Assembly: GCF_018889955.1 (NCBI RefSeq)
Contig: NZ_CP076545.1
Span: 1,302,001-1,366,000 of the forward strand
DNA from: Collinsella sp. zg1085
GTDB lineage: Bacteria; Actinomycetota; Coriobacteriia; Coriobacteriales; Coriobacteriaceae
Reading direction: 5' to 3'
Length of the DNA: 64,000 nucleotides
Position 1 is the first letter of the stretch. Each line of letters opens with the position of its first letter. The notes beneath the pieces are model-generated. The model ran no database searches. It was not told the origin of the DNA and worked only from the letters and a program-made list of their open reading frames with translations. The position numbers and the translations under genes were made by a program. This document shows, piece by piece, positions 34,797-41,479 of this stretch.

Positions 34797-34872
34797 GGGC
34801 GATTGGCGCAACGGTTAGCGCAGGTGCTTTACACGCACAAGGCTGGGGGTTCGAATCCCTCATCGCCCACCA
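34797..34872 (+). tRNA. tRNA-Val (anticodon UAC)
   Basis: 76 bases with CCA encoded. The acceptor GGGCGAT pairs with ATCGCCC; the anticodon arm is GTGC-TTTACAC-GCAC with anticodon TAC; the T arm holds GGTTCGAATCC. The gene has its own promoter and terminator. The bases from 34852 on are the first copy of a downstream tandem repeat. Confidence 0.95.
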
Positions 34873-34884
34873 TAGCTTTGCTTG

Positions 34885-34908
34885 AGGTTCCTACATGGAG
34901 CCTTTTTT
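34885..34908 (+). terminator. Intrinsic terminator of tRNA-Val
   Basis: AGGTTCC (34885-34891) pairs with GGAGCCT (34897-34903, one G-U pair) followed by TTTTTT. The same terminator recurs in each downstream repeat copy; in the last copy the partner is GGAACCT, restoring a full Watson-Crick stem. Confidence 0.9.
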
Positions 34909-34925
34909 GTTATGTGCTCTTATCA

Positions 34926-35047
34926 GGGGATTCGAACCCGCAAGGGCGCGAAGCTGAGAAACGTGCGTTTAGCACGTTGCCAGCGAAGCGCGCAAGCCAG
35001 CCAAAGGCTGGCGCAGCGAACGGGCGCGTATGCGCCCCCGAATCCCT
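34926..35047 (+). other. Multi-helix folded module of the repeat (copy 1)
   Basis: The module is closed by GGGGATTCG (34926-34934) pairing with CGAATCCCT (35039-35047). Inside are CCC-GCAA-GGG (GNRA loop, 34937-34946), and a long stem CGC-GAA-GCTG/CAGC-GAA-GCG with a symmetric GAA/GAA internal loop and an AACGTGC-GTTTA-GCACGTT tip (34947-34990). These are followed by GCCAGCC-AAA-GGCTGGC (34996-35012) and GGGCGC-GTAT-GCGCCC (35022-35037). The closing stem is an inverted copy of the tRNA T-arm sequence. Whether this works as RNA or as DNA hairpins is unknown. Confidence 0.75.
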
Positions 35048-35536
35048 CATCGCCCACCATAGCTTTGCTTGAGGTTCCTACATGGAGCCTTTTTTGTTAT
35101 GTGCTCTTATCAGGGGATTCGAACCCGCAAGGGCGCGAAGCTGAGAAACGTGCGTTTAGCACGTTGCCAGCGAAGCGCGCAAGCCAGCCAAAGGCTGGCG
35201 CAGCGAACGGGCGCGTATGCGCCCCCGAATCCCTCATCGCCCACCATAGCTTTGCTTGAGGTTCCTACATGGAGCCTTTTTTGTTATGTGCTCTTATCAG
35301 GGGATTCGAACCCGCAAGGGCGCGAAGCTGAGAAACGTGCGTTTAGCACGTTGCCAGCGAAGCGCGCAAGCCAGCCAAAGGCTGGCGCAGCGAACGGGCG
35401 CGCATGCGCCCCCGAATCCCTCATCGCCCACCATCGCTTTGCTTGAGGTTCCTACACGGAACCTTTTTTGTTATGTGCTCTTATCAGGGGATTTGAAGCC
35501 AGGAGGTTTGAAGCGACATCGCGCGTGGAATTTACC

Positions 35537-36947: not shown

Positions 36948-37316
36948 GGGGGCGACTGGTTTCGACACGATAGTTCTGAGAGAGGAAGCAAGTCGTGGTC
37001 TCCTCACCACGTTAAACAGGGGTACCGTCAAATTGAATTGACAATAATTCTTCTTATGAGCCTCAACTGGCTCTCGCTGCCTAAGTTATAGCGTAGCGCG
37101 TTAAACCGGGGATTTCCCCGACTCCGGGGCAACGTCATCTTAGGGGAATGCGCCTTTGCACGTAATCGGTATGGCAAAGGCTAAGCTTGAACCGGTTAGG
37201 GTGCCTTGAGCGTGTTACTGCGCGCGAGACATCTAAATCTAAACCAGTAACTGAGCTTGGAGATGCCAATCAGGGAGCTGTCGTGGACCGGAGTTCGATT
37301 CTCCGCGCCTCCACCA
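36948..37316 (+). ncRNA. ssrA: tmRNA
   Basis: 369 bases. The 5' GGGGGCG pairs with CGCCTCC at the 3' end (one G-U), the D-like region reads GACTGGTTTCGAC, the T arm is GGAGTTCGATTCTCC and CCA is encoded. The tag frame runs from about 37040 to the TAA at 37082-37084 and reads DNNSSYEPQLALAA; the resume codon GAC is my best guess. The ALAA end is the degron read by ClpXP-type proteases. tmRNA rescues stalled ribosomes and is a common integration site for mobile elements. Confidence 0.95.
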
Positions 37317-37647: not shown

Positions 37648-37706
37648 TTGATTTACCTGTTAAATTATTGTATAATAATACGTAATTACGTGAATACGTA
37701 TTATAG
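37648..37706 (+). promoter_or_regulatory. Promoter with ACGT-repeat operator of the restriction-modification locus
   Basis: TTGATT (37648-37653) and TATAAT (37671-37676) with a 17-base spacer form a near-consensus promoter. Overlapping and following the start site, AATACGTAATTACGTGAATACGTATT (written here as three TACGT-type boxes at about 37678-37703) is a dyad-rich stretch. Such short repeated boxes suit a ribbon-helix-helix protein, so autoregulation by the next gene is likely. Confidence 0.7.
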
Positions 37707-37717
37707 GAGAACTTGAT

Positions 37718-37894
37718 ATGAACAAGAAAGACAAAAAGAAGACGTCAGGAAATGTCAGGCGAACAAAGCTGACGCTGTCTGTGACGACAGAGGATAAGAA
37801 GATTTTGAAAATCATTGCAGCCAAGAGGGAGAAATCCATCTCAGCGATGCTGCATGAGTGGGTTGAGGAAAATGCAGAGGAGGCTGAGGAATAA
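37718..37894 (+). CDS. Ribbon-helix-helix protein heading the restriction-modification operon
   Basis: 58 residues. A basic N-terminus (MNKKDKKKTSGNVRRTK) leads into LTLSVTTEDKKILKIIAAKR and EKSISAMLHEWVEENAEE, a strand plus two helices of CopG/Arc type. AGGAGA precedes the ATG. Its TAA shares one base with the ATG of the nuclease-methyltransferase gene (TAATG), so the two are translationally coupled. I infer that it controls the operon through the ACGT boxes upstream, taking the role that C proteins have in other restriction-modification systems. Confidence 0.75.
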   Translation: MNKKDKKKTSGNVRRTKLTLSVTTEDKKILKIIAAKREKSISAMLHEWVEENAEEAEE

Positions 37895-39822
37895 TGGCAA
37901 AGAAGGAAGTTAAGACTGACCTGTGGGTCGCAAAGCAGCTCGATGAGTGTGGTATCAAGTTCGATGCTCAGGGCAGCAACGCGAAGGAAATAAACGACGC
38001 TCTTAAGACGGCGTCAAAGCGAGGAACTGGTAAGGCAGGATATCCTGAGTACGTCGCTGTCATCGGCGATTTCGTCCTTGTTATCGAAGATAAGGCCGAT
38101 ATGGGCAAGCAGATTAAGCTAACCGATTCGGGCATCATCGACATGGACGTGAAGGCTGTGACCGACTATGCCGTGAACGGTGCGTATTTCTATGCAAAGC
38201 ACATCGCGCAGAACACTCCGTTCAAGAAGGTGTTTGCTGTCGGTGTTTCCGGTGACGCGAAGCGTCACAAGATTACGCCTCTTTATGTGGACGACCGCGA
38301 GGGCTACAAGCAGCTTGAGGACATCGAGACATTCGTCGGGTTCTCCCCTGACAATATTCAGGAATACTACACACGCTATGTACTGGAGGAGATGACGGAC
38401 GTTGAAAAGACGACCGAGCAGATTCTGAAGGATGCAGCTGAGCTGCATGAGTATCTGCGCACATATGGAACGCTGAGAGACCAAGACAAGCCGTTAGTTG
38501 TTGCTGGTATCCTGCTTGCGCTGGACGAAATCAAGTCTAGGGGGTTCTCGATTGAGAGTCTTACGGGTGACCAGCTCGCTGGGAACCGTGACGGCGACAA
38601 GCTGATGAACGCCATCAAGAACCGTCTGACGCGCTCGAACGTGGGTCCAGAAGCGAAGAAAGATAAGCTCTTGTCTGAGTTCGCAATCTTGCAGACGAGC
38701 TTCAGACTGAACGAGATAAACGATACGCTGGGCAAGACGCCGCTCAAGTTCTACACGGAGTTCCTGAACGAGCACGTGTTCAAGAACATCAAGTACCAGA
38801 AGACCAGCGAGGACTTCATCGGCCGATTCTATGGCGAGTTTATGAGTTATTCAGGCGGTGACGGCCAGACGCTAGGCATTATTCTGACACCTTGCCACAT
38901 CACTGACCTGATGTGTAAGCTTGTGGATATCCAGGCGGATGACGTCGTTCTGGACCCGACTTGTGGAACTGCGGGATTTCTGATTTCCGCCATGCACCGC
39001 ATGCTGTCCATGGCTGATAGCGAGAGCAAGCGCAGAAACATCAAGAAGAAGCAGCTGCATGGTTTCGAGCTTCAGAGCAACATGTTTGCGGTGGCTGCTG
39101 CGAACATGATTCTTCGCGAGGACGGCAACAGCAACCTTGAGTGCACGGACTTCCTCAAGAAGAACCCTGCACAGGTGCAGCTGAAGCAGGCGACGGTCGG
39201 TCTAATGAATCCACCTTATTCGCAGGGGTCGAAAGCTGACCCTGAGCAGTACGAGCTATCCTTCATCGAGCACATGCTAGACTCGCTGACCATCGGAGCA
39301 CGCGCCGCAGTGATTGTCCCGCAGTCCTCCATGACGGGCAAGAGCAAGGCAGAACAGGCTTTCAAAGAATCCATCATGAAAAAGCACACGCTCGAAGGCG
39401 TCATCACCTGCAACACCGATACATTCTACGGCGTGGGCACGAATCCGGTTATCGCTGTGTTCACAGCGTATGAACCGCACAACGAGGACAAAGTCTGTAA
39501 GTTCATCGACTTTCGCGATGACGGGTACGAGGTTCGAGCTCACGTCGGCTTGGTCGAGGGCGATTCTGCGAAGGACAAGGAGCAACATTTGCTGGATGTC
39601 TGGAGCGGAAGCGTTGAGGCTCCATCGAAGTTCTGCGTCGAGTCCACAGTGAAGGCCGACGACGAGTGGCTGCACTCGTTCTATTTCTTTAACGACGAAA
39701 TTCCGACGGATGCGGATTTCGAGAAGTCTATCGGCGATTACCTGACGTTCGAGTTCTCTATGGTGATGCAAAACCGCGAGTACCTGTTCATGGGAGGTGA
39801 CAAGGATGCAGAGTCTAAATGA
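37894..39822 (+). CDS. Fused nuclease and N6-adenine methyltransferase, BcgI subunit A-like
   Basis: 642 residues. Residues 51-67 contain P-E, twelve residues, then E-D-K inside hydrophobic strands: a PD-(D/E)xK nuclease site. After a helical linker, the methyltransferase has LTPCHITDLM, motif I DPTCGTAGFL (354-363) and motif IV NPPY (439-442) of gamma-class N6-adenine enzymes. This order and length match BcgI subunit A (about 637 residues, as I recall with a P-E-x12-E-x-K site), a Type IIB enzyme that cuts on both sides of its site. A plain HsdM would lack the nuclease part, and no hsdR gene is present. Followed by an overlapping specificity gene. Confidence 0.85.
   Translation: MAKKEVKTDLWVAKQLDECGIKFDAQGSNAKEINDALKTASKRGTGKAGYPEYVAVIGDFVLVIEDKADMGKQIKLTDSGIIDMDVKAVTDYAVNGAYFYAKHIAQNTPFKKVFAVGVSGDAKRHKITPLYVDDREGYKQLEDIETFVGFSPDNIQEYYTRYVLEEMTDVEKTTEQILKDAAELHEYLRTYGTLRDQDKPLVVAGILLALDEIKSRGFSIESLTGDQLAGNRDGDKLMNAIKNRLTRSNVGPEAKKDKLLSEFAILQTSFRLNEINDTLGKTPLKFYTEFLNEHVFKNIKYQKTSEDFIGRFYGEFMSYSGGDGQTLGIILTPCHITDLMCKLVDIQADDVVLDPTCGTAGFLISAMHRMLSMADSESKRRNIKKKQLHGFELQSNMFAVAAANMILREDGNSNLECTDFLKKNPAQVQLKQATVGLMNPPYSQGSKADPEQYELSFIEHMLDSLTIGARAAVIVPQSSMTGKSKAEQAFKESIMKKHTLEGVITCNTDTFYGVGTNPVIAVFTAYEPHNEDKVCKFIDFRDDGYEVRAHVGLVEGDSAKDKEQHLLDVWSGSVEAPSKFCVESTVKADDEWLHSFYFFNDEIPTDADFEKSIGDYLTFEFSMVMQNREYLFMGGDKDAESK
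38044..38094 (+). other. PE-x12-EDK nuclease motif
   Basis: Codes for residues 51-67 of the nuclease-methyltransferase: PE, YVAVIGDFVLVI, EDK. The spacing places an acidic residue on one strand and E-x-K on the next, as in restriction nucleases of the PD-(D/E)xK class. Confidence 0.75.
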
Positions 39823-40321
39823 GAGGGAATGGAGGCAGCTGTCGGCTTTTGGCAACGGTGCTCCGCTGCATATCGAAACAACCAGTAGTAGTATTGACGG
39901 CATTCGCCTGATAGATGATGGTGAGAAGTCGGTTCCATATATTACTCGCTCCGATGCCAATAATGGCTTGGCGCGTTTCGTAAGCGCAAAGAACTATGCG
40001 TTTGGCAGTGATGATGGCGGTTGCATAACTGTTGGTTTGGATACGCAGACGGCGTTTTATCAGCCGCATAAGTTTGTCACGGGACAAAACGTGCAGGTTA
40101 TTACGGACAAAAACTTGAACAAAGACGTGGCTCAGTTTGTAGTGCCTATTCTGCGTCAGCAGATGACGGCTAAATTTAATTGGGGCGGTAACGGTGCAAC
40201 ACTTGGACGTATGAGGCGGCTTTCCATCATGCTTCCTGTTGACGATGACGGCAATCCTGACTACGACTACATGACGCAGTACGCCTCCGAAATGAGGGGG
40301 GGGGTTGCTCATGCGGTATAA
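39806..40321 (+). CDS. Specificity subunit, target-recognition unit 1 (frame ends after G9 tract)
   Basis: 171 residues as sequenced. The ATG at 39806 follows GGGAGG and lies inside the end of the methyltransferase gene. The unit opens with LNEREWRQLS, contains a recognition-domain-like middle (SVPYITRSDANNGLARFVSA, GCITVG, TAFYQPHKFVTGQNVQVI) and closes with MLPVDDDGNPDYDYMTQYASEM. At the G9 run (40296-40304) the frame continues only nine codons to a TAA. With eight Gs it would read on as RGGLLMRYKHYVAGRLSELE into unit 2, giving a 367-residue protein, close to BcgI subunit B (about 341). So the present form is either an OFF state or a short product. Confidence 0.8.
   Translation: MQSLNEREWRQLSAFGNGAPLHIETTSSSIDGIRLIDDGEKSVPYITRSDANNGLARFVSAKNYAFGSDDGGCITVGLDTQTAFYQPHKFVTGQNVQVITDKNLNKDVAQFVVPILRQQMTAKFNWGGNGATLGRMRRLSIMLPVDDDGNPDYDYMTQYASEMRGGVAHAV
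40296..40304 (+). repeat. G9 homopolymer in the specificity gene
   Basis: Nine consecutive Gs after ATGA, at the junction of recognition units 1 and 2. Frame arithmetic: G9 stops at 40321, G8 (or G11) fuses units 1 and 2, G10 stops soon in the third frame. The run also resembles a ribosome site seven bases before the ATG of unit 2. Confidence 0.9.
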
Positions 40322-40910
40322 ACATTATGTCGCTGGGCGACTCTCCGAGTTGGAGTACAAAGACATCCCAGCACTGGACGAGAAGGAATGGGCGGAGTTT
40401 CGCATCGGAGATTTGTTCGAAGTAAGTCGTCCAACGGCACGAAACAAGGACAATTACCAAGCGGGCGGAGTCCCATTCGTTGCGTCGGGAAGCGTGAATA
40501 ATGGGGTTATGAAGCTCTGCGAACCGCTAGATGACGAGCCGTTGGATAAAGGCAGGTGCATCACGGTTAGCCCTGTTGATGGCAGCACATTCTATCAACC
40601 AATGGATTTTCTTGGCCGTGGAGGTGCTGGTTCGTCAATATTGATGCTGCGTAGCGATAACTTGAATTTATATCGTGGCCAACTCATGGCACGGGCTATT
40701 CAGCAAACATGTTCGAAATATACCTATGGGCACATGGGCAACAAAGACAGCATTAAGCGTGAACGAATCATGCTCCCCGTCAATGATGCGAGTAAGCCCG
40801 ATTATGCGTATATGGAGCAGTATGCAAAGAACATGATGTTTCGCAAGTATCGTGCATATCTCAATTTCATTGAGCGAGAAATTGACGATATCGAGAGAGA
40901 GAGAGAGTAA
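40311..40910 (+). CDS. Specificity subunit, target-recognition unit 2
   Basis: 199 residues from the ATG at 40311, with the G tract as a possible ribosome site. After a helix (MRYKHYVAGRLSELEYKDIP) it repeats the architecture of unit 1: LDEKEWAEFRIGDLFEVSRP, VPFVASGSVNNGVMKL, ITVSPVDGSTFYQP and the closing IMLPVNDASKPDYAYMEQYAKNMM with a long helix. The end is a (GA)7 tract translating as IERERE then TAA. Removing one GA would join unit 3. The initial helix is what one expects of the unit 1-unit 2 linker, so this was once one gene with unit 1. Confidence 0.8.
   Translation: MRYKHYVAGRLSELEYKDIPALDEKEWAEFRIGDLFEVSRPTARNKDNYQAGGVPFVASGSVNNGVMKLCEPLDDEPLDKGRCITVSPVDGSTFYQPMDFLGRGGAGSSILMLRSDNLNLYRGQLMARAIQQTCSKYTYGHMGNKDSIKRERIMLPVNDASKPDYAYMEQYAKNMMFRKYRAYLNFIEREIDDIERERE
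40893..40907 (+). repeat. (GA)7 dinucleotide tract in the specificity gene
   Basis: GAGAGAGAGAGAGAG precedes the stop of unit 2. In the present length the frame ends at 40910. Loss of one GA (or gain of two) joins unit 2 to unit 3; gain of one GA gives a stop at 40912-40914. Confidence 0.9.
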
Positions 40911-40912
40911 GT

Positions 40913-41434
40913 GAGCCGCTAGCAAAGCTGAGCGAGAAGGAATGGGCTGAGTTTTCGTTAGACGATGTTTTCACTGTTGGCGCGGGCAAGAGATTGGAGA
41001 CGCGTAACAAAATTCCCGGAACACGTCCGTTTATCGGTGCAACTGATAACGGAAATGGCGTGACGGGCTTTGTCGGGAATGATAATGCGTCAAAAGATAG
41101 CAACGTGTTAGGTGTAAACTATAATGGAGCGCCGTGTATTGCTTTTTATCATCCGTACGAATGTGTTTTTACGGACGATGTAAAACGGCTGCATTTACGG
41201 CATTACAGGGATAACGAGTTTGTTTTGCTGTTCTTCGTATCAGAATTTGCGCAGCAACGTTCAAAATATAGCTATGGCTATAAGTTCAAAGAACAGAGAA
41301 TGCTGAGACAAAAATTGATGCTTCCTGTCGCTGATTCGGGCGAGCCTGATTACGAATATATGGAGCAGTACAGTAAGAACATGATGCTTTGCAAGTATCA
41401 GCAGTATCTGGCGTTTCTGGAGCAGAGCGTTTGA
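40913..41434 (+). pseudogene. Specificity subunit, target-recognition unit 3 (no start codon of its own)
   Basis: The frame from 40913 reads EPLAKLSEKEWAEFSLDDVF, RPFIGATDNGNGVTGFVG, CIAFYHPYECVFTDDVKRL, KYSYGYKFKEQRMLRQKLML, PVADSGEPDYEYMEQY and ends KYQQYLAFLEQSV. It is a third copy of the same recognition unit (about 174 residues). The first possible start inside is a TTG at 40994 with no ribosome site, so it is expressed only if the (GA)7 tract changes length. Sequence quality is intact, with no internal stop, which argues for selection rather than decay. Fused with units 1 and 2 it would give about 541 residues. Confidence 0.75.
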
Positions 41435-41443
41435 TAAGTGAAC

Positions 41444-41479
41444 AAGCCCGCCGTTTCTTTCCAGTCGGCGGGCTTATTT
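41444..41479 (+). terminator. Intrinsic terminator of the restriction-modification operon
   Basis: AAGCCCGCCG (41444-41453) pairs perfectly with CGGCGGGCTT (41466-41475), followed by ATTT. It is placed just after unit 3, so all three units belong to one transcript. Confidence 0.8.

Follow-up and report, generated by a model that had tools for sequence, protein, structure and literature searches.

A BcgI-like restriction-modification operon of Collinsella sp. zg1085 with a putative two-tract slippage switch in its specificity gene

Is a specificity gene that is interrupted at two repeat tracts simply broken, or could the tracts change the DNA sequence that the enzyme reads? The question is raised by a locus in a 64,000-nt stretch of the genome of Collinsella sp. 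zg1085 (contig NZ_CP076545.1, positions 1,302,001 to 1,366,000), here called the window. All coordinates are those of the window, and all features apart from an inverted repeat are on its plus strand. A gene for a ribbon-helix-helix (RHH)-like protein, a gene for a restriction-modification (RM) subunit, A, and a specificity (S) gene with three recognition domains (TRDs) are predicted to form one operon.

The A subunit (37894..39822, 642 aa) matched the PADLOC Type IIG model over its full length (1.7e-164) and N6_Mtase (2e-30). It begins with a PD-(D/E)xK nuclease (P51-E52, E65-x-K67) followed by a helical connector, and contains a gamma-class N6-adenine methyltransferase with DPTCG at 354-358 and NPPY at 439-442. 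These motifs, the first methyltransferase motif as DPxCG, were conserved in 12 aligned sequences including Sau42I, and the nuclease motif was invariant among relatives of A. Sau42I of Staphylococcus phage phi-42 (X94423) is a characterised relative to which A is 45% identical over 97%; it adjoins a two-TRD S, which differs from the Collinsella gene in being in one frame and in lacking the two-tract arrangement. The structure model of A was only fair (pLDDT 61), and its residues 1-548 aligned with 44-755 of the BsaXI RM subunit (Z 17.5, rmsd 17.6). The fused nuclease/methyltransferase of BcgI-like layout proposed in the first-pass annotation agrees with the Sau42I identity, the BsaXI alignment and the Type IIG match.

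The methyltransferase half of A also matches HsdM structures, as expected if A were a Type I M subunit whose HsdR is encoded elsewhere. That case had been named at the outset as one that would overturn the Type IIB reading. HSDR_N, however, had no match in the genome, which is 99.9% complete, the N-terminal nuclease motif is invariant among relatives, and over its full length A matches Type IIG models; the likelihood of a Type I system is negligible. As in Type IIB enzymes, a single RM polypeptide appears to join an N-terminal nuclease to an N6-adenine methyltransferase, the separate S gene is built of tandem TRD-helix units, and the genome-wide HSDR_N search detected no translocating R subunit. 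On sequence grounds the A subunit is Type IIB-like (BcgI-like), with predicted catalysis.

The S gene had been described as three homologous units, and each unit indeed has its own Methylase_S (PF01420) match, with E-values of 1.9e-10, 1.2e-11 and 7.4e-13 for units 1, 2 and 3, the only such matches in the genome. Unit 1 (TRD1, 39797..40321) starts at GTG 39797 or ATG 39806, ends shortly past its G tract when that tract is G9, as sequenced, and shares 63-64% identity with the second TRD of loci L007 and L019. Unit 2 (TRD2 with its full C-terminal helix, 40305..40910) has candidate internal starts at TTG 40305 and ATG 40311 and is 76-78% identical to TRD2 of loci L016 and L067. The AlphaFold model of unit 2 had a mean pLDDT of 94, and its helix 165-198 terminates in residues coded by the GA tract. 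This model matched HsdS structures and the BsaXI S chain with a moderate Foldseek TM (0.45-0.54 by query length), partly since a half was compared with whole HsdS chains. Unit 3 (TRD3, 40907..41434) also matched Specificity_II (4.4e-51). Its frame has no start codon before the TRD, and the first TTG (40994) lies inside the TRD, so unit 3 is producible only as a fusion.

Units 1 and 2 are divided by a G9 tract (40296..40304) in the helix connecting TRD1 and TRD2, and units 2 and 3 by a (GA)7 tract (40893..40906) at the end of the unit 2 helix, where the first-pass annotation had placed the divisions. Each tract throws the following unit out of frame. Frame arithmetic was recomputed and showed that G5, G8 or G11 joins units 1 and 2 and that GA6 or GA9 fuses unit 3 to unit 2, the other GA phases stopping at ERERE or ERESK. 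The 1+2 and 1+2+3 fusions are 370 and 544 aa long from GTG 39797, and 367 and 541 aa from ATG 39806, the start from which the lengths given earlier (with joining states of G8 and (GA)6) had been counted. Among the products listed there the fusions stand, and unit 2 alone has only the candidate starts given above.

The breaks in the S frame coincide exactly with the two tracts. The number expected by chance in the S gene under a first-order Markov model was 0.0014 for G9 runs and 2.5e-6 for (GA)7; both observations support a slippage switch in a Type IIB system. In a pattern search of the 1.72 Mb genome (GA)7 occurred once, and G/C runs of at least 9 were found in 14 places, so that G9 is not unique by itself; other poly-G/C tracts lie in an Eco57I-type methylase gene and in a Cna_B gene. 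As in phase-variable genes, the repeats lie within the reading frame and their unit number shifts it. As in HpyUM032XIII and NgoAV, a tract sits at an inter-TRD boundary, and S is half-length in one phase and fused in another.

Tract lengths were compared across species, in genome collections with one genome per species. The G junction is shared by three other loci (L006, L016 and L067) with an in-frame G7 in each, giving lengths of 9, 7, 7 and 7 over four loci; these G7 tracts, all in frame, may be too short to vary. The homologue of the GA junction in an independent MAG, a genome of the same genus (L011/L005), is (GA)13 and out of frame, so that the lengths over two loci are 7 and 13. In both GA loci only one of the three phases fuses the next TRD and both others stop at once. 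The differing lengths at both junctions support slippage, as far as sequences from different species can. The sole further match in a class-wide search for the GA pattern (L051 of genome G227) lay at a contig edge with no TRD and was treated as chance. The poly-G junction pattern was present in ten viral contigs, of which only that with L067 had an S gene, and a search of viral contigs for the GA tract found none. No attachment-site repeats of the tmRNA 3' end of at least 13 bases were found in the window, and hence an integrated element is not shown.

Heritable slippage must be weighed against programmed ribosomal or transcriptional slippage, by which all products would be made from one DNA sequence with no heritable switch. 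A run of nine G can slip in transcription or translation, and unit 3 lacks its own start. On the other hand, at each junction the related loci have tracts of unequal length, as heritable slippage predicts, and the G7 relatives are simply in frame; we consider programmed slippage quite unlikely. Alternatively, the tract lengths could be sequencing errors in a gene fixed at G8 and GA6. One G too many could have been called in G9, an error of one being the commonest in homopolymers, and the in-frame relatives have the short G7. However, a two-base mistake in a 14-bp dinucleotide tract is unlikely, the (GA)13 of the independent MAG is out of frame too, and an S fixed with three TRDs would be unusual in its own right. 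Error as the explanation of both tracts is very unlikely.

In most of the full-length relatives S has two TRDs in a single frame, and a natural single-TRD S is found on a plasmid of L. plantarum, both in keeping with a slippage switch; against it, the three-TRD arrangement had no counterpart among the loci examined. The S gene might be decaying, with unit 3 as a TRD left over from recombination and the frameshifts as ordinary loss of function. The two frameshifts in the sequenced allele and the two TRDs of most relatives fit decay, as do the insertions or the nonsense codon that disrupt some relatives of A. Against this, both disruptions fall exactly at unusually long repeats, the second GA locus shares the out-of-frame arrangement, and units 1-3 have no other stop and a low pN. 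Unit 3 is 76% identical to TRD2 of locus L009, with a pN of 0.165 against a saturated pS, and judged by these values it is intact and conserved. Decay is unlikely, with somewhat more in its favour than the other alternatives.

The reading that we prefer, with a probability of about 0.7, is that of a horizontally mobile BcgI-like (Type IIB) operon whose S gene is a two-tract slippage switch. A would supply the nuclease and methyltransferase and S the TRDs, and the tracts would slip in this species. With G9, as sequenced, S would be limited to half-length proteins: unit 1, its helix shortened, and also unit 2 provided that translation resumes at either internal start. Two copies of a half-S would pair and target the enzyme to a palindromic site; otherwise the system would be off. 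Such half-S activity at a palindrome is known in Type IIB from BsaXI and from HpyUM032XIII (PMC4450513). TRD2-CR2 of BsaXI by itself could not be expressed, so not every half-S works. Slippage from G9 to G8 would fuse TRD1 to TRD2 into the ordinary S with two TRDs, which would read an asymmetric bipartite site, and slippage from GA7 to GA6 would append TRD3 and yield TRD2-TRD3 or TRD1-TRD2-TRD3. Activity is presumed for the half-S and three-TRD forms, and switching would probably alter methylation and phage restriction. More tentatively, and at somewhat less than even odds, the two unlike tracts may act independently as a combinatorial switch that chooses among half-S, TRD1-TRD2, TRD2-TRD3 and a three-TRD S that maybe reads more than one site, the GA tract with the extra TRD being a recurrent appended cassette of a mobile Type IIB family.

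The first-pass annotation knew of no such system, but precedents have been published. The closest is the BcgI-like HpyUM032XIII of Helicobacter pylori UM032. A change between G12 and G11 in S was shown by experiment to switch a palindromic to an asymmetric site, SMRT sequencing giving CYAN7TRG for the half-S and CYAN7TTC for the fused S (PMC4450513). It resembles the Collinsella locus in its fused RM gene and in an S split by an inter-TRD poly-G at which a one-base slip fuses the parts; it differs in having two TRDs and one tract, with no GA tract or third TRD, and belongs to Campylobacterota. The available part of its description does not mention an RHH gene (PMC4450513). The BcgI-like Type IIB systems HP1471/1472 and JHP1364/1365 (Hpy99XXII) of H. 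pylori have a phase-variation-prone poly-G (G13/G14) in S, but with one tract and published as an on/off control, not a TRD switch (PMC3936762). Two tracts in one gene, as here, occur in the H. pylori Type IIG enzyme JHP1272/HP1353-1354, in which the first turns the enzyme on or off and the second adds a C-terminal recognition domain that alters specificity; that enzyme is a single-chain, MmeI-like protein and both tracts are homopolymeric (PMC3936762). JHP1422/1423 (M.Hpy99XV) shares three consecutive TRDs in one S, which serve two recognition sites, TRD3 alone giving a palindrome, but is Type I with no slippage tract reported as a switch (PMC3936762). In NgoAV of Neisseria gonorrhoeae a poly-G between the hsdS halves toggles half-S and fused S and changes specificity, in a Type I system with HsdR and two TRDs (PMC9577141, PMC6789123).

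Helicobacter thus already provides proof of the one-tract version of the switch; the new part here is the second tract with the extra unit. What is new is the combination of three TRDs, two unlike tracts and a TRD-appending GA tract in Actinomycetota. With three interchangeable units, copying slips should change the DNA sequence read by the enzyme. If the switch works, one gene would give at least four S forms through two cheap slippage events, so that several methylation patterns and restriction barriers would coexist within a clonal population, and BcgI-like specificity switching would extend from Helicobacter to Actinomycetota. The locus would also allow two questions to be tested compactly: can one S with three TRDs act on two sites, and can a recognition domain be gained through a dinucleotide tract?

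The operon is flanked by candidate control elements, the first two of which had been reported earlier as promoter and terminator. The candidate sigma-70 promoter (37648..37676), TTGATT-17-TATAAT, matches at 10/12 positions, and its -10 region is conserved in A. deltae; promoter-like matches were not in excess of those in shuffled sequence (4 against an expected 4.5). The candidate intrinsic terminator, read directly at 41444..41475, has a perfect 10-bp stem and a 12-nt loop that exceeds the loop limit of the terminator scanner. The 58-aa product of the first gene (37718..37894) is RHH-like by weak sub-threshold matches, the sole basis of its family assignment, and is a candidate autoregulator; the stop of its gene overlaps the start of A (TAATG). 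Upstream lies a 30-bp inverted repeat (37675..37704, ATAATACGTAATTAC/GTGAATACGTATTAT, arms 87% complementary), a candidate operator at which the RHH protein is likely to repress the operon. An RHH orthologue was found in A. deltae alone among the fetched loci, in the identical position, where the repeat adjoins its gene with one change. A different repeat, (ACAAC)12, is located upstream of A in a Ligilactobacillus relative.

The operon layout proposed in the first-pass annotation proved correct: an RHH-like gene (37718-37894) is followed by A, the fused nuclease/N6-methyltransferase gene (37894-39822), and by the specificity gene S in three frames (39797-41434), with a G9 tract at 40296-40304 and a (GA)7 tract at 40893-40906. 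Each S unit carries one Methylase_S domain, and these three are the only ones in the 1.72 Mb genome. The frame table showed that units 1 and 2 are joined by G5, G8 or G11 and units 2 and 3 by GA6 or GA9. Under a first-order Markov model, 0.0014 G9 runs and 2.5e-6 (GA)7 runs were expected in the S gene. (GA)7 occurs once genome-wide. G/C runs of at least 9 (9-12) were found at 14 places, against about 3 expected when the 0.11 per 64 kb of the window model is scaled to the genome.

The earlier assignment of A as Type IIB-like was weighed against an HsdM-type A with an hsdR elsewhere. Full-length A matched a Type IIG restriction-methylase model at 1.7e-164, and its nearest characterised relative found was Sau42I of phage phi-42 (45% identity over 97%). 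BsaXI, a Type IIB enzyme, needs a canonical PD-(D/E)xK cluster for cleavage (PMC11997821). P51-E52, E65-x-K67, DPxCG and NPPY were invariant in 12 of 12 aligned A sequences. The predicted A structure, of fair confidence (pLDDT 61), aligned from residue 1 onwards with the BsaXI RM subunit (Z 17.5, rmsd 17.6). No HsdR was found in the genome. Together, these matches, motifs and the alignment, with HsdR lacking, decided for Type IIB.

Damaged A genes were also seen. In Ligilactobacillus ruminis, the codon for E65, the conserved nuclease Glu, is replaced by a TAG stop (L008:5193-5195), and the remaining gene is open. A is interrupted or shortened between codons 354 and 408 in a MAG (L016, 6071-7397), a viral-collection contig (L067), L018/L020 and L015, and two of these breaks lie at or adjoin the DPTCG methyltransferase motif. 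This stretch of codons appears to be a place where insertions recur.

The S of most full-length relatives comprises two TRDs in one frame; a natural single-TRD S was found on an L. plantarum plasmid. A. deltae, L016 and L067 share the poly-G junction, as G7 and in frame in all three. The GA junction is present as (GA)13 in a rumen genome of the same genus (L011/L005), whose A is 78% identical; there the tract is out of frame, and a second TRD follows it. In both GA tracts one phase of three fuses the next TRD, and the other two stop immediately at ERERE or ERESK. Unit 1 is similar to the TRD in second position at locus L007; unit 3 is similar to the second-position TRDs of L008 and L009 and to the first-position TRD of L007. 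Judged by these resemblances, TRDs shift between positions within S. Because both junctions recur in relatives and TRDs change position, the three-TRD gene looks like a poly-G two-TRD S to which a GA-linked TRD was appended. Unit 3 is intact; its pN against L009 is 0.165, with pS saturated, values in which selection before and since recruitment are inseparable.

Unit 2 was modelled with high confidence (pLDDT 94): its TRD has a short helix on the N-terminal side and a long one (165-198) on the C-terminal side, and the model resembles HsdS structures as well as the BsaXI S chain. The GA tract encodes the last turn of this long helix; the G tract encodes residues within the TRD1-TRD2 joining segment, which aligns with the same helix. 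In the model, these positions place both tracts at joints of recognition modules.

G-tract slippage would toggle between a full TRD1-TRD2 S and half-length products, and GA-tract slippage would add or drop TRD3. Half-S function has precedents in Type IIB. BsaXI TRD1-CR1 with RM cuts symmetric AC N5 GT, and partial deletion of the half-S helix leaves partial activity (PMC9159934). In HpyUM032XIII, a BcgI-like system of H. pylori with S split by one poly-G tract, methylation falls on a palindrome with the half-S and on an asymmetric site with the fused S (PMC4450513). The sequenced state (G9, GA7) is predicted to recognise a palindromic site or to be off, because unit 1 keeps little of its helix and unit 2 requires internal initiation.

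Published work already covers poly-G control of a BcgI-like S and the switch of specificity that it brings, two-tract Type IIG genes, a three-TRD Type I S and poly-G in NgoAV; an AG tract is also described for the gene of the MmyCI Type III methylase (PMC3498834). New relative to the open-access literature searched are a single gene that combines three TRDs with two tracts, a TRD appended through a GA tract, and the occurrence in Actinomycetota.

The RHH-like gene, whose product matched RHH families below their thresholds, co-occurs with a 30-bp inverted repeat at the promoter in the window and A. deltae, loci similar throughout. Controller proteins autoregulate promoters in other restriction systems. 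The joint occurrence in two loci suggests, by analogy, that the RHH-like protein may autoregulate the operon promoter.

Other slippage-type repeats were noted. In the same genome, a G9 tract (G000:C1:748774; L043 position 1775) lies just after an Eco57I methylase domain, near the reading-frame end and at a frame change, and past it runs a further open frame; this is possibly a second phase-variable restriction-modification gene. Slippage may also control surface genes: a 933-aa Cna_B frame has C9 close to its start (L049 position 5056; G000:C1:1626555), and a lipoprotein-like gene has C11 within the part that encodes its signal peptide (L047 position 2222; G000:C1:1296721). On a Ligilactobacillus salivarius plasmid (system 80% identical), (ACAAC)12 at L022:3330-3389, about 110 bp upstream of A, suggests a further point of slippage control in the family.

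The operon promoter lies about 330 bp downstream of the end of the tmRNA gene (36948-37316). Mobile islands commonly insert at the 3' ends of tmRNA genes; no duplicated attachment sequence of the tmRNA end was found. A 187-bp unit that starts inside the 3' end of a tRNA-Val gene (34797-34872) is repeated in tandem at 34852-35497, in 3.5 copies that are 98% alike.
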